Positions 18,510 to 24,047 of a DNA stretch of 64,000 nt are shown piece after piece (position 1 is the first letter of the stretch; every line of letters starts with the position of its first letter). Source of the stretch: Pengzhenrongella sicca (GTDB lineage Bacteria > Actinomycetota > Actinomycetes > Actinomycetales > Cellulomonadaceae). The stretch lies in assembly GCF_017569225.1 (NCBI RefSeq), contig NZ_CP071868.1, positions 2,356,001-2,420,000 on the forward strand, given 5' to 3'. The translations under genes were made by a program, and so were the position numbers. Under the pieces are notes generated by a model, which was given only the letters and a program-made list of their open reading frames with translations, had not been told where the DNA came from and ran no database searches.

Positions 18510-19823
18510 GTGTCCTCCCCCGCGCAGCACGCCGACCCCGCCGTGCCTCTCGACGCCGCGCCAAACGGCGCCGTACCCGCCGGCGCCGCGCCCACCGAGC
18601 CGGTGCCCCTGGACGCGCTGCTGCGCGCGGACGGCCTGCACTGCGTCTACCAGCCGTTCGTCGACCTCGACACCGGCGCGGTGCTCGCCCACGAGGCGTT
18701 GCTGCGCGGCCCCGCCGGCACGCCGTGGCAGTCCCCGCTGGTGCTGCTCGACGCCGCGCGAGCGGCCGGCCGGATCGTCGACCTCGAGCGGGCATCGCTC
18801 GCGACGTCCCTCGCCGACGCCGCCCGGCTCTCGGGCGGGCGTCCCGTGACCCTGTTCGTGAACATCGAGCCGAGCACCCTGACCGGGCATCTCGACGTCG
18901 TGCTCGCCGCGGTCGCCGCCCGGGCGGCGCACGTCCAGGTCGTCGTCGAGATCACCGAGCGGGCCCTCGCCGCCGACCTTGCCGGGGTCCTGGCAGGCGC
19001 CGAGCGCCTGCGCGCGGCGGGGTGTGCGATCGCGCTCGACGACGTCGGCGTCGAGCCCGCGTCCCTCGCGCTCATCCCGTTGCTGCGTCCGGAGGTCGTC
19101 AAGCTCGACCTACGCCTGCTGCGCACCGTGCACGACGTCGCGACCATCACCGTCGCGGGGGCCGTGCGCGCGTACGCGGAGGCGTCCGGCGCCGAGGTCG
19201 TCGCCGAGGGCATCGAGACGCAGGCCGACCTGACCCGGGCTCTCGTGCTCGGGGCGACGCTCGGGCAGGGCTGGCTCTGGGGCCGCGGCGAGCGCCGGTT
19301 CGCCGCGACGACCTCCCGGCCGGAGCGGTTTGCCGCGCACTCGATCAGCCCGCAGCTGTGCACGACCCCGTACGAGGTGATCGGCGCGGGCCGCCGGCTC
19401 CGCCGCGCCCCCAAGCACCTCCTCCTGCCGCTGTCGCACACGCTCGAGCTCACCGCGGCGCAGGCGCGGGTCGCACCGCTGCTGCTCGCCGGGTTCGAGG
19501 ACGCGCGGTTCTTCAGCCCGGACACCGCGCGGCGCTACACCGAGCTCGCCCGGCAGCTGCCGTTCGTGGGCGCGCTCGGGGTCGGCATGTCCGCCGAGCC
19601 GGCGCCGGGCGTCCGGGGCACCGCGCTGTCCCGGCAGGACCCGCTCGCACGCGAGTGGACCGTCGTCGTGCTCGGCGCCCACACGGCGGCCGCCCTGATG
19701 GCGCGGGACCTCGGCGACGAGGGGGCCGACGGCGACCGCGAGTTCGAGTTCGTCGTCACCTACGACCGGGCGTTGGTCACGGCCGCCGCCCAGGCGCTCG
19801 TCGGGCGCTTCGCCCGCGCCTGA
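18510..19823 (+). CDS. EAL-DICT protein (c-di-GMP phosphodiesterase)
   Basis: A 437-residue protein with an EAL domain (about residues 35-265) followed by a DICT sensory domain (about 275-435). No membrane segment is seen. All catalytic EAL residues are present: Glu in HEALLRG, Asn in FVNIE, Glu in VEITE, Asp-Asp in LDDVG, Lys in VKLD, Glu in AEGIET and Gln in LGQGW. It can therefore be an active cyclic di-GMP hydrolase, with the DICT domain as likely input. The GTG start has GGCAGG close by. An imperfect repeat of ATAGGC and a TGCC/GGCA inverted repeat lie just upstream. A related gene with the same domain order lies at 25759-27192. Confidence 0.88.
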   Translation: MSSPAQHADPAVPLDAAPNGAVPAGAAPTEPVPLDALLRADGLHCVYQPFVDLDTGAVLAHEALLRGPAGTPWQSPLVLLDAARAAGRIVDLERASLATSLADAARLSGGRPVTLFVNIEPSTLTGHLDVVLAAVAARAAHVQVVVEITERALAADLAGVLAGAERLRAAGCAIALDDVGVEPASLALIPLLRPEVVKLDLRLLRTVHDVATITVAGAVRAYAEASGAEVVAEGIETQADLTRALVLGATLGQGWLWGRGERRFAATTSRPERFAAHSISPQLCTTPYEVIGAGRRLRRAPKHLLLPLSHTLELTAAQARVAPLLLAGFEDARFFSPDTARRYTELARQLPFVGALGVGMSAEPAPGVRGTALSRQDPLAREWTVVVLGAHTAAALMARDLGDEGADGDREFEFVVTYDRALVTAAAQALVGRFARA

Positions 19824-19826
19824 CGC

Positions 19827-20596
19827 TCACGCCCAGATCGGACTCCAGGTACCGGCCAGGACCGCCGCCGCGACGGCGGCCGCTGCGACGCCGACCGCGG
19901 CGGCCGCGACCCCCGCATCGACCCGGCTGAAGACGCTCGCGCGGGCCCACGTCCGGGTCCCGCCGCCGAAGCCGCGCGCCTCCATCGTGATCGCCAGGCG
20001 GGTGGCGCGCCGGATCGCCTGCACGAGCAGCACGGACGCCTGGTCGGCCTGGACCCGGAGCCCGGGCCGCCGGCCGCGCCGGCCGCCCAGCCCGCGGGCC
20101 CGCCGCGCCATCGTCAGGGTGGTCCACTCGTGGCCGAGCAACCCGACCAAGCGTAGCGCGGCGAGCGCACCGAGAACGAACCGGGACGGCAGCCGGAGCC
20201 GCTGCGCGAGCCCGTCCGCGAGGTCCGTCGGGTCGGTGCAGGTCAGCAGGAGAACCCCCGGCAGGGCGATCGCGAGCGCGCGCATCGCGATCGCCACGCC
20301 GCCGCGATCGCGCCGGCGCTGACGGCCACCGCGCCGAGCCGGATCACCACCGGCCCGCTCGGGTCGGCGAGCACCGCCGTGCTGTAGCCGCTGAGCGTCG
20401 CAGCGGCGAGGATCGGCCATCCGCGCAGGGCGAGGCCGCGGTAGGTGAGCCCGGCGAGGGGCACGACCGCGAGCTCGAACGCGAGCGCGACGCAGGCCGA
20501 GACCCAGTCGACCGAGAGCAGCAGGACGACCGTCAGCACGAGCGCCCCGGCGAGCTTCGCGAGCGGGTTCGCCCGCGCGAGGACGGGCGCCGTCAC
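19827..20596 (-). CDS. ECF transporter T subunit, apparent frameshift
   Basis: Transmembrane EcfT/CbiQ protein of the thiamin-precursor importer, encoded in two frames. The first part, from GTG 20596, runs TAPVLARANPLAKLAGAL and covers the first membrane helices, but its frame continues to a stop at 20243. The rest continues in the -1 frame from VAIAMRALAIALPGV near 20300 to 19827. It carries both Ala-Arg-Gly coupling motifs (MARRARGLG and TMEARGFGG). The switch falls in the GCGGCGGCG run at 20297-20305. A one-base deletion, a sequencing error in this run, or a split gene restarting at ATG 20285 would all explain it. The GTG overlaps the ATPase stop. Confidence 0.8.
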
Positions 20597-22158
20597 GCCG
20601 CCCGCCCGGACCTGGCAGGCGCCCGTCGGGGCGTACGCGCCGCGCCGCCGAGCTCGAGCCGCGCGGCGCCGAGCACGCCCGCGATCTCGGCGTCGTGGCT
20701 GACGGCGACGATCGCGCTGCCGGCGTCGAGCAGCTCGCCGAAGAGGCCCGCAAGCTCGGCCCAGGTCGTCGCGTCCTGGCCGAAGGTGGGCTCGTCGAGC
20801 ACGAGGACGGCGGGGCTCGTCGCCAGTGCCGTCGCGACCGAGACCCGCCGCTTCTCGCCGCCGGAGAGCGTGAACGGGTTCGCGCCCGCGAGGTCGGTCA
20901 AGCGCAACCGCTCGAGCAGCTCGTCGACGCGACCGGCGCCGGCCTCGCGAAGCCGCGGGGACCGGCGTCGGCCACGGGCGGCGACCCGGCGCGGCCCGAA
21001 CGCGATCTCGTCGCGGACGGTGCCGGTGACGAACTGGTGCTCCGGTTCCTGGAAGACCATGGCAATCCGGGTGATGAGCTCGGCCGCGGTCCAGTCGGCC
21101 GGATCCGCCCCGACGCCGCCCGACCGCAGGGGCGCCCCCGCGACGACCGAGCCACCGGCGGCTGGCAGCAGCCCGGCGAGCGTCAGGGCGAGCGTCGACT
21201 TCCCGGCGCCGTTCGGCCCGGTCACCACGAGCGCTTCCCCGGCCGCGACCGACAGACCGATCCCCGCGGCCACGGGCGGCGACGGCCGACGGCGTCGGCC
21301 CGGCACGCGGGCGACGGCCAGGTCGCGCGCCGCGAGCAGCGTGACGGGCGCGACGGCCGCCGCGCCGCAGGCGGGGAGCCCGCGCGCGGTGACCTGCGGC
21401 GCGCGCCCAGGTACCCACACGCCCGCCGCGTCGAGGGTCGACCGCTGCCCCGCGAGCACGCGGGCCGGCGCCCCGTCTGCCACCACCGCGCCGCCCCGAC
21501 CGAGCACGACGATGCGGTCAACGACGTCGACCCACACCTCGACCCGGTGCTCCACCACGATCAGCGTCGAGCCGGTCGCTCCGAGCACGCGCACCACCGC
21601 GTCCCGGACCTCGAGCACGCCCCGCGGGTCGAGGTTCGCCGTGGGCTCGTCCAGGATCAGCGCGCCGGGGCGCATCGCGAGGATCCCGGCCAGCCCCAGC
21701 CGCTGCTTCTGCCCGCCCGACAGGGCCGACGTCGGGTGCCCGTGCGGCAGGTCGAGGCCGACGGCCGCGAGGCTCTCGGCGACCCGGGTCCAGATCTGCG
21801 CGCGCGGCACCGCGAGGTTCTCCGCGCCGAACGCGACATCGTCGCCGATCCGGGCGAGCACGATCTGGCTCTCCGGGTCCTGCTGCATCAGCCCGACCCG
21901 CCCGCGCTGGCCCGCCGCCGGGGCGCCGTCCACCAGGAGGCGGCCGGACTCCGACCCGCCGGAGCCGTCGTCCAGCACGCCCGCGACGGCCTGCAGGAAG
22001 GTCGACTTACCCGCGCCGGAGGGACCGAGCAGAAGTACTCGCTCGCCGGCCTCGACGTGCAGGTCGAGCCCCTGCAGGGCCGGCCGCACCCGACCCGCGT
22101 GGCGCCAGCCCCACCCCTGCGCGGTGATCGACGCCGGCCGGACCACCGGCGCACTCAC
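20593..22158 (-). CDS. ECF transporter fused ATPase (EcfA1-EcfA2)
   Basis: A 521-residue double ABC ATPase. The first cassette has Walker A GPSGAGKST, signature LSGGQKQR and Walker B LILDEPT. The second has GPNGAGKST, LSGGEKRR and LVLDEPT. Each Q-loop region (MQQDPE and VFQEPE) is intact. As in YkoD it powers an ECF importer with the S and T subunits on either side. It overlaps both neighbours by GTGA. The operon is led by a TPP riboswitch, so it is off when thiamin pyrophosphate is high. Confidence 0.92.
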   Translation of the reverse strand: MSAPVVRPASITAQGWGWRHAGRVRPALQGLDLHVEAGERVLLLGPSGAGKSTFLQAVAGVLDDGSGGSESGRLLVDGAPAAGQRGRVGLMQQDPESQIVLARIGDDVAFGAENLAVPRAQIWTRVAESLAAVGLDLPHGHPTSALSGGQKQRLGLAGILAMRPGALILDEPTANLDPRGVLEVRDAVVRVLGATGSTLIVVEHRVEVWVDVVDRIVVLGRGGAVVADGAPARVLAGQRSTLDAAGVWVPGRAPQVTARGLPACGAAAVAPVTLLAARDLAVARVPGRRRRPSPPVAAGIGLSVAAGEALVVTGPNGAGKSTLALTLAGLLPAAGGSVVAGAPLRSGGVGADPADWTAAELITRIAMVFQEPEHQFVTGTVRDEIAFGPRRVAARGRRRSPRLREAGAGRVDELLERLRLTDLAGANPFTLSGGEKRRVSVATALATSPAVLVLDEPTFGQDATTWAELAGLFGELLDAGSAIVAVSHDAEIAGVLGAARLELGGAARTPRRAPARSGRAA

Positions 22159-22823
22159 GCGGGAGTCCGGCGCACGGCCGACTCGGTCGCCGCGCCGCGC
22201 GAGGCCAGGTGCGCGAGGACCCCCGTCCGGGCGAGTGCGCGCACGCCGAACCAGGGCACCGCTCCGGCGAGGACGACGCCGGACGCCGCCGTGAGGACCA
22301 GGTACACCCGCTGCCACTGCCCGGCCCAGGCGACGTGGTAGAGCACGTTCTCCGTCGCGCCGAGCGCGAGCCCGGCGACGCCGCCGGCCAGCAGCGCGAC
22401 CGGGAGGGTCCACCGCCGGTACCGGAACGCGGCGAACACGAACTCGGCCGCAAGGCCCTGCATGAGACCCGAGATGACCACGGTCCAGCCGAAGTGCGTG
22501 CCCAGGAAGCCCTCGACGACCGCCGCCACGAGCTCGCAGTACAGCGCCGCTCCCGGGCGCCGGACGATCAGCGCGCCGAGCGCGCCGGCGAGCAGCCAGC
22601 CGCCGCTGTACAGGCCCGCGAGCGGGGGGAAGCTCACCGTGAGCAACGCGACGGCGACGTAGCCGGCGGACCACCCCCAGAAGACGACGCCGACGGTCGC
22701 CGCGACGATCGAGGCGACGACGATGTCGACGACGCGCCAGCGCGATCGCCGGGCCGTTCGGAGCGAGACGGGTGCATCGGGTGCGTCAGGTGCGTCGGGT
22801 GCGTCAGGTGCGTGCATGGTCAT
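22155..22823 (-). CDS. YkoE-type ECF substrate-binding subunit
   Basis: A 222-residue integral membrane S component with six helices, resembling YkoE (hydroxymethylpyrimidine/thiamin precursor uptake): VVFWGWSAGYVA, GLYSGGWLLAGALGALIVRR, GTHFGWTVVISGLMQGLAAE. The N-terminus holds a run of Ala-Pro-Asp repeats made by a 9-bp tandem repeat. First gene of the importer operon, directly after a TPP riboswitch, which fixes the thiamin connection. Confidence 0.9.
   Translation of the reverse strand: MTMHAPDAPDAPDAPDAPVSLRTARRSRWRVVDIVVASIVAATVGVVFWGWSAGYVAVALLTVSFPPLAGLYSGGWLLAGALGALIVRRPGAALYCELVAAVVEGFLGTHFGWTVVISGLMQGLAAEFVFAAFRYRRWTLPVALLAGGVAGLALGATENVLYHVAWAGQWQRVYLVLTAASGVVLAGAVPWFGVRALARTGVLAHLASRGAATESAVRRTPA
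22771..22815 (-). repeat. 5 x 9-bp tandem repeat (APD repeats)
   Basis: Five units of GGTGCGTCR on the plus strand encode the Ala-Pro-Asp repeats at the N-terminus of the YkoE-type protein. Copy-number change would stay in frame. Confidence 0.8.
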
Positions 22824-22887
22824 GGTGCGGTCCTCCTGGAACGTCAGGAGGGGAGGGCGCCGACGGTCGCCGGCTCCCCAAGAACTC

Positions 22888-22980
22888 GACTCCCTTCGCC
22901 GGTACTAACCGGATCAGGTTCGAGGGTCTGCGGCGAACCGCACTCTCAGCGCCCACCGATCTGCGGCGGCGCTCCCCTGT
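22888..22980 (-). promoter_or_regulatory. TPP riboswitch (importer operon)
   Basis: Read on the minus strand it shows the THI box parts: a GGGGAGCGCC start arm, CTGAGA (revcomp of tctcag at 22943-22948), then AACCTGATCCGGTTAGTACC and GGCGAAGGGAG at the 3' side. It ends about 65 bases before the ykoE-type start. It responds to thiamin pyrophosphate, as in the divergent thi operon. Confidence 0.93.
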
Positions 22981-22999
22981 CGTCTCTCGTGCGCCGCGA

Positions 23000-23053: not shown

Positions 23054-23059
23054 CGACGA

Positions 23060-23140
23060 CCGACGCGGGGTGCCGTGCGTGGCGCGGCTGAGAACACACC
23101 CGTTGAACCTGATCTAGTTCGCACTAGCGAAGGGAACGTC
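23060..23140 (+). promoter_or_regulatory. TPP riboswitch (thiMED)
   Basis: GACGCGGGGTGCC, then GGCTGAGA, ACACCCGTTGAACCTGATC, TAGTTCGCACTAGC and GAAGGGAA form a textbook THI element. It ends only five bases before the thiM ATG, so the AAGGGAA at its 3' end is also the ribosome site and control is likely translational. Confidence 0.95.
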
Positions 23141-23144
23141 GCGG

Positions 23145-24047
23145 ATGCCCGCACCTTCTGCACGACCTGATCGACCTGATCGACCGAACACTGACCTGCG
23201 CACGAGCGAGCTGCGCGCCGACGCCATCGGCGCTGAGTCGATCAGCGCCAACGATGTCGGCGGGGTGCTCGCCGCGCTGCGTGAGCGAGCACCCCTGGTC
23301 CACTGCCTGACGAACGTCGTGGTCGCGCAGTGGACCGCTAACCTCCTGCTCGCGGTGGGAGCCAGCCCGATCATGGTCGACAACCCGCACGAGGCCGCCC
23401 CGATGGCGGCGGCCGCCGACGCGGTGCTGGTCAACCTCGGGACTCCGTCGGACGAGACCGTCGCGGCGATGCTCCTCGCGGTCGCCGCCGCGACGAGCGC
23501 CGCGACGCCGTGGGTCCTCGACCCTGTCGGCGCCGGGGCGCTCTCCTGGCGGACGCGCACGGCCGAGCGGCTGCTCGCGCCCACGACGCCCGACCGGAGC
23601 GCGCCGACGATCCTGCGCGGCAACGCGTCCGAGATCCTGGCCCTCGCCGGCGGCGCGGGCGGCAAGGGCGTGGACGCGACGCACAGCCCGGAGGCGGCGC
23701 TGCCCGCCGCGATCGCCCTTGCCCGCGAGCACGGCTGCGTCGTCGCGATCAGCGGCGAGGTCGATCACCTGACCGACGGCGAACGGGTCGTGCGCGTGGC
23801 CAACGGCCACCCGTTGCTGACCCGCGTGACGGGCGTGGGGTGCGCGCTCGGCGCGCTGATGGCGGCGTGCTGCGCCGTCACCCCCGACGCGCTGCTCGCG
23901 GCCGTCACCGCGACTGCGACGCTGACGGTCGCCGCAGAGACCGCGGCGAACGCGAGCGCGGGCCCCGGCAGCTTCGCGGTGGCGCTGCTCGACGCGCTCG
24001 CGGCGATCGAACCCGACGGACTCGTCGACCGGGTCCGGCTCGCGTGA
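23145..24047 (+). CDS. thiM: Hydroxyethylthiazole kinase
   Basis: A 300-residue ribokinase-fold enzyme that phosphorylates 4-methyl-5-hydroxyethylthiazole for thiamin salvage. Motifs: [50 protein letters not shown], and [12 protein letters not shown] with the catalytic Cys. A 40-residue N-terminal extension ([13 protein letters not shown]...) precedes the fold. The ATG is set by the riboswitch edge. First gene of thiMED; its stop overlaps thiE by GTGA. Confidence 0.95.

Follow-up and report, generated by a model that had tools for sequence, protein, structure and literature searches.

Transporters of the YkoEDC type consist of an EcfS protein of the PF09819 family, which we take to be the YkoE family, a fused double ATPase, and an EcfT protein that corresponds to YkoC (CbiQ family, PF02361). 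The locus described here is located in a window of 64,000 nucleotides (the whole stretch of DNA that was analysed) and has the same components, encoded in one overlapping operon and preceded by a TPP riboswitch. It is unlike a YkoEDC-type transporter in that the EcfT frame is broken. The name YkoEDC is used presumptively for this operon, and both the name and the putative substrate follow from gene context.

Broken ecfT genes have a precedent in another ECF module. The accessible part of one report describes real ecfT frameshifts with early truncation in small-colony variants of Staphylococcus aureus (PMC6102330), where 133 of 268 amino acids are retained, compared with 117 amino acids here and 267 in the continuous EcfT of the same-genus relative L002. 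This precedent favors a true null mutation at our locus as well. Unlike the present break, the S. aureus case was shown by strain comparison and a revertant, as that part of the report states. The break also resembles the singletons collected in the GeneTack survey, as far as the available text of the survey describes them (PMC3711429): it is isolated, it affects a conserved family, and it is absent from homologues, and no difference from that class is seen. The same text expects singleton frame breaks validated by homology to be sequencing errors.

The locus is best described as the EcfT gene of an otherwise ordinary YkoEDC-type importer, interrupted in one assembly by an indel of the one-base class. 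With a probability of roughly one half, we infer that the offset stems from a residual mistake in base calling or assembly. The error would have occurred at a very GC-rich spot between two perfect inverted repeats, and the living cell would have a whole EcfT. This reading is favored because the break is private, neither part is eroded, and the site is a GC-rich hairpin. Most likely the break reflects either a small sequencing error or a loss that is very recent, is not a new mechanism, and adds little beyond annotation.

The operon and its interrupted EcfT gene

The ECF operon is read from the minus strand in the order EcfS, EcfAA and EcfT, the last being farthest from the TPP riboswitch (Table 1). 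According to the coordinates, each partner gene overlaps the one that follows it by 4 bases. Neither partner gene is interrupted, which agrees with an earlier note that had called the neighboring genes intact and tightly overlapped. The EcfS (PF09819), ATPase and EcfT genes that define the YkoEDC-type set are thus found together, and the riboswitch at 22874-22988 indicates TPP control. The feature that is missing is a continuous EcfT, whose frame is broken at approximately 20299. Gene order and family membership suggest that the importer is of the YkoEDC type, and the context indicates that it probably transports a thiamin precursor (vitamin B1 precursor). Scores against NCBIfam TIGR02454 (CbiQ) fall below the cut-off (47.5 of 111.8 bits for the C-terminal part, 68.6 for L002), and therefore EcfT is not the cobalt equivalog.

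A divergent set of thiamin salvage genes lies behind a second TPP riboswitch. The true start of ThiM is probably later than the listed position 23145, because the start of the listed ORF overlaps this riboswitch. ThiM is followed by genes that read as ThiE and then ThiD, both named from sequence. Elsewhere in the window, at 1537-1611 on the plus strand, there is a match to the c-di-GMP-I-GGC riboswitch (61.1 bits versus a cut-off of 59), and an EAL-DICT gene occupies 18510-19823.

The EcfT gene (20596..19827, minus strand) is composed of two parts in different frames, offset by one base at a GCGGCGGCG stretch near 20299. The first ~98 of the 117 residues of the N-terminal part are conserved and can be aligned to EcfT proteins, and an out-of-frame tail follows. 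Although a Pfam search with this part by itself finds nothing at E 0.001, it aligns to the N-termini of EcfT proteins with 29-65% identity (70 closest loci). The C-terminal part matches columns 98-210 of the 216 in the CbiQ profile (E 2e-17). A codon-usage HMM that was blind to the finding sets the frame change at 20298-20302, and GC at the third codon position (GC3) is 0.98 in the N-terminal part and 0.95 in the C-terminal part. The gene name, the coordinates and the two frames assigned in the earlier note are correct.

Table 1. Coordinates of the ECF locus, its surroundings and other apparent frame breaks in the same genome.
Feature	Position	Strand	Evidence or description
EcfT C-terminal part, frame B	19827..20300	-	ends at stop 19827; Pfam CbiQ PF02361
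EcfT N-terminal part, frame A	20243..20596	-	GTG 20596 to stop 20243, 117 aa
Perfect 11-bp inverted repeat, 9-nt loop, adjoining break	20265..20295	.	inverted-repeat scan
Perfect 9-bp inverted repeat, 9-nt loop holding the break	20286..20312	.	inverted-repeat scan
Frame break site	20295..20303	-	codon-usage HMM 20298-20302 + alignment of relatives
Fused double ATPase EcfAA	20593..22158	-	521 aa, uninterrupted, 0 stops; ABC_tran E 1.5e-50
EcfS, PF09819 family	22155..22823	-	222 aa, uninterrupted, 0 stops; PF09819 E 2.1e-36
TPP riboswitch ahead of ECF operon	22874..22988	-	67.9 bits
TPP riboswitch ahead of divergent thiamin salvage genes	23056..23153	+	riboswitch search
ThiM (PF02110)	23145..24047	+	ORF list + Pfam
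Apparent break, zinc metallopeptidase	L148 17493	-	HMM + by eye
Apparent break, RidA-like protein	L149 14462	-	HMM + by eye
Apparent break, DUF222/HNH gene	L119 14284	+	HMM + by eye
Apparent break, DUF222/HNH gene	L144 2600	+	HMM + by eye
Apparent break, IS transposase	L159 4869	+	HMM + by eye
Apparent break, pectinesterase-containing giant protein	L168 12936	+	HMM + by eye

Distribution and conservation of the break

Among 97 EcfT loci that were examined, both parts could be located in 80 (N-part hits strong in 70, with E at most about 1.3e-7, and weak in 10, from 1e-6 to 0.2). Fifteen others lack an N-part hit and are uninformative, and the remaining two are this locus, represented twice. 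Every informative locus (80/80) has both parts in one frame with no stops, and different frames occur in 2/97 loci only, both of them copies of this very locus. The comparison with relatives that the earlier note had proposed thus establishes that the frame break is private to this one genome or assembly. Within the genus, a match to the C-terminal part is found in two of five genomes (the present one included), and the genus relative G003 has the same ECF operon order. A search of a plasmid collection with the C-terminal part yielded no match. One of the EcfT loci, L034 (WNZI01000001.1), encodes an Arthrobacter-like EcfT in a record titled Vibrio cholerae strain 35D, and this record name looks wrong.

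The broken copy has retained the residues that characterize its family. In an alignment with 70 relatives, it keeps 59 of the 61 residues that are conserved in at least 90% of them, and 85 of the 90 residues at the 80% level. When each relative is left out in turn, the medians of retention are 100% and 95% and the minima 81% and 73% at the 90% and 80% levels, respectively, so that the broken EcfT falls within the range of the 70 relatives. With these counts and with uninterrupted EcfS and EcfAA genes, no relaxed constraint was detected on the broken EcfT or its partner genes. Constraint on EcfT either persists or ended only very recently.

This result bears directly on the main alternative, in which the indel is a very recent null mutation that truncates EcfT before the coupling motifs. 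The importer would then be dead, and the strain would live by ThiBPQ-like uptake. Since neither EcfT part nor the partner genes are eroded, such a mutation must be very recent. The absence of erosion is compatible with a mutation of that age, and so a real inactivation survives this test. Considering also the evidence on thiamin supply given below, we put this reading somewhat short of even odds. A third way to account for the lack of decay in both parts and in the partner genes would be a real break in a cell that still obtains a working EcfT, either from two parts made separately or through a frame change that is non-canonical and assisted by the hairpin. To this we give only a slim chance.

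Local sequence and translational alternatives

The break site is very GC-rich and is bracketed by the two perfect inverted repeats. That these repeats lie where the frame changes was noticed post hoc. The window contains 23 perfect inverted repeats with a stem of at least 9, equal to the highest count in six Markov simulations (9-23), and because the count falls within that range the repeats are unremarkable as such. The fold of the DNA at the break is somewhat stronger than that of shuffled sequences (z -2.0). A homopolymer slip was discarded, because nowhere within 30 bases of the break does the same base occur three or more times in succession. The break does carry a short tandem GCG repeat of three units. 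In a separate count, the palindrome GCGATCGC has 27 copies in the whole window versus 7-18 in ten first-order Markov simulations.

Some of these features might promote errors. GGC motifs and inverted repeats are described ahead of Illumina miscalls in the accessible part of one study (PMC3622629), but those miscalls are mismatches rather than indels, and the connection to the indel seen here is a hint, no more. The context that could be regarded as error-prone includes two perfect inverted repeats but no homopolymer, and the six other breaks in the genome (see below) lack such a context.

Programmed or leaky -1 ribosomal frameshifting, aided by a hairpin, would fuse both frames into one EcfT. 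Two features speak for this model: the frame changes in the -1 direction, and the perfect 11-bp repeat follows directly downstream. However, bacterial -1 shifting has a Z_ZZN or X_XXZ_ZZN motif as a mandatory part, according to the available text of one source (PMC4066793), and neither motif is present here. In addition, the RNA fold is no stronger than that of shuffled sequences (z -0.95), and the site is not conserved, with the break present in 0/80 informative loci. A search of one open-access library turned up no EcfT gene with reported recoding and nothing on programmed frameshifting in thiamine ABC permeases. The slippery-site -1 shift suggested in the earlier note thus finds poor support in a triplet repeat without triple identical bases, and we regard it as very improbable.

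The same note had also suggested a split protein with a restart at ATG 20285. In this model, the C-terminal part would be translated on its own and would combine with the N-terminal part. An ATG at 20285 is indeed in frame with the C-terminal part, 42 bases ahead of the stop of the N-terminal part, and neither part is eroded. Against this, no Shine-Dalgarno-like sequence is seen by eye before the ATG, whose first base (A) is inside an arm of the 11-bp inverted repeat. Moreover, no informative relative is split, and the break is ahead of the coupling motifs, in the presumed membrane domain. This assignment of the break region to the membrane domain of EcfT is our presumption, guided by an alignment to 4hzu_T. 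The idea consequently fares poorly, and we consider it hardly credible.

In phase variation, slippage would change the length of the short tandem GCG repeat at the break. However, adding or removing one three-base unit preserves the frame, three units are few, and the frame is unchanged in the informative relatives. Phase variation is as far-fetched as the split protein, and even when recoding and all remaining possibilities, these two among them, are taken jointly, they remain improbable.

Thiamin supply and other breaks in the genome

No match to ThiC was found in this genome or in the four other genomes of the genus (0/5), and the cell thus depends on uptake of thiamin or of its precursors. 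This need counts against a null mutation. The argument is weakened by a third TPP riboswitch, which precedes uninterrupted genes reading as ThiB, ThiP and ThiQ (G000:C1:4163000-4172000, L105; named from sequence). Because this second TPP-regulated uptake operon is present, loss of the ECF importer would be tolerable, and the ThiBPQ-like genes suggest that thiamin uptake could survive it. Three other genomes of the genus (G001, G002 and G004) each have one TPP riboswitch match followed by relatives of the ThiBPQ-like genes and no match to the EcfT C-terminal part, a pattern that likewise favors a tolerated null mutation. In G003, the single TPP riboswitch match is ahead of the ECF operon. As a possible replacement for the broken EcfT, the genome that carries the window offers one other CbiQ-family match. 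The genes beside it, named from sequence, read as an ATPase and a BioY-like protein, and the set looks like a biotin importer.

The two leading readings, both already among the options of the earlier note, differ in their consequences. If the offset is an error, then a prediction based on the genome would wrongly call the importer dead. If it is real, then of its two uptake systems under TPP control the strain has freshly lost one, and its genus has no ThiC match in the five genomes searched.

The genome is a single contig of 4,395,128 bases with 99.99% completeness. It was scanned for further breaks in the window and 50 stretches of 20 kb (1,064,000 bases). Strict filtering of the frame-break HMM calls recovered just 15/83 simulated single-base deletions and was abandoned; the unfiltered caller recovered 70/83. 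Of its 60 raw calls, 41 had a flank with fewer than 100 coding bases and were removed, and 19 were judged by eye. Seven of these were taken as breaks within one gene, ecfT included. The other 12 were put down to genes that adjoin or overlap, to composition artefacts, or left undecided (L138 and L117), and they include a call at the start of ecfT (20640), as overlaps score much like shifts.

Pfam searches were made for five of the six other breaks. Both halves match neighboring columns of one family in L148, L149 and L119, with four of these six half-matches below the curated cut-off, and just one half has a match in L144 and L168. The ecfT break is therefore one of several isolated breaks in this genome and is not special, a situation that fits either residual indels or ordinary pseudogenes. 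The approximately six further breaks in the 1.064-Mb sample lend support to residual error, and the presence of other breaks in the same genome is compatible with a null mutation as well. Several observations count against an error. The single contig and its completeness indicate that the assembly may be well polished. Some of the other breaks affect gene types prone to decay (two DUF222/HNH genes and an IS transposase), as would be expected for natural pseudogenes. The ecfT break is off a homopolymer, and the RNA fold at the site is unexceptional (z -0.95). There is also no common error signature, in that the other six breaks are away from inverted repeats. Within 15 bases, none of those six has an inverted repeat whose stem reaches 8 or more (0/6), and a hairpin-driven error process was accordingly dismissed as a general cause.

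The same kind of scan was applied to a control genome, G016 (195,000 bases), and gave 18 calls, or four under a slightly different strict filter. By eye, two of them are apparent breaks, at L133 15879 (-) and 7428 (-), and one of these is in a protein kinase-like gene.
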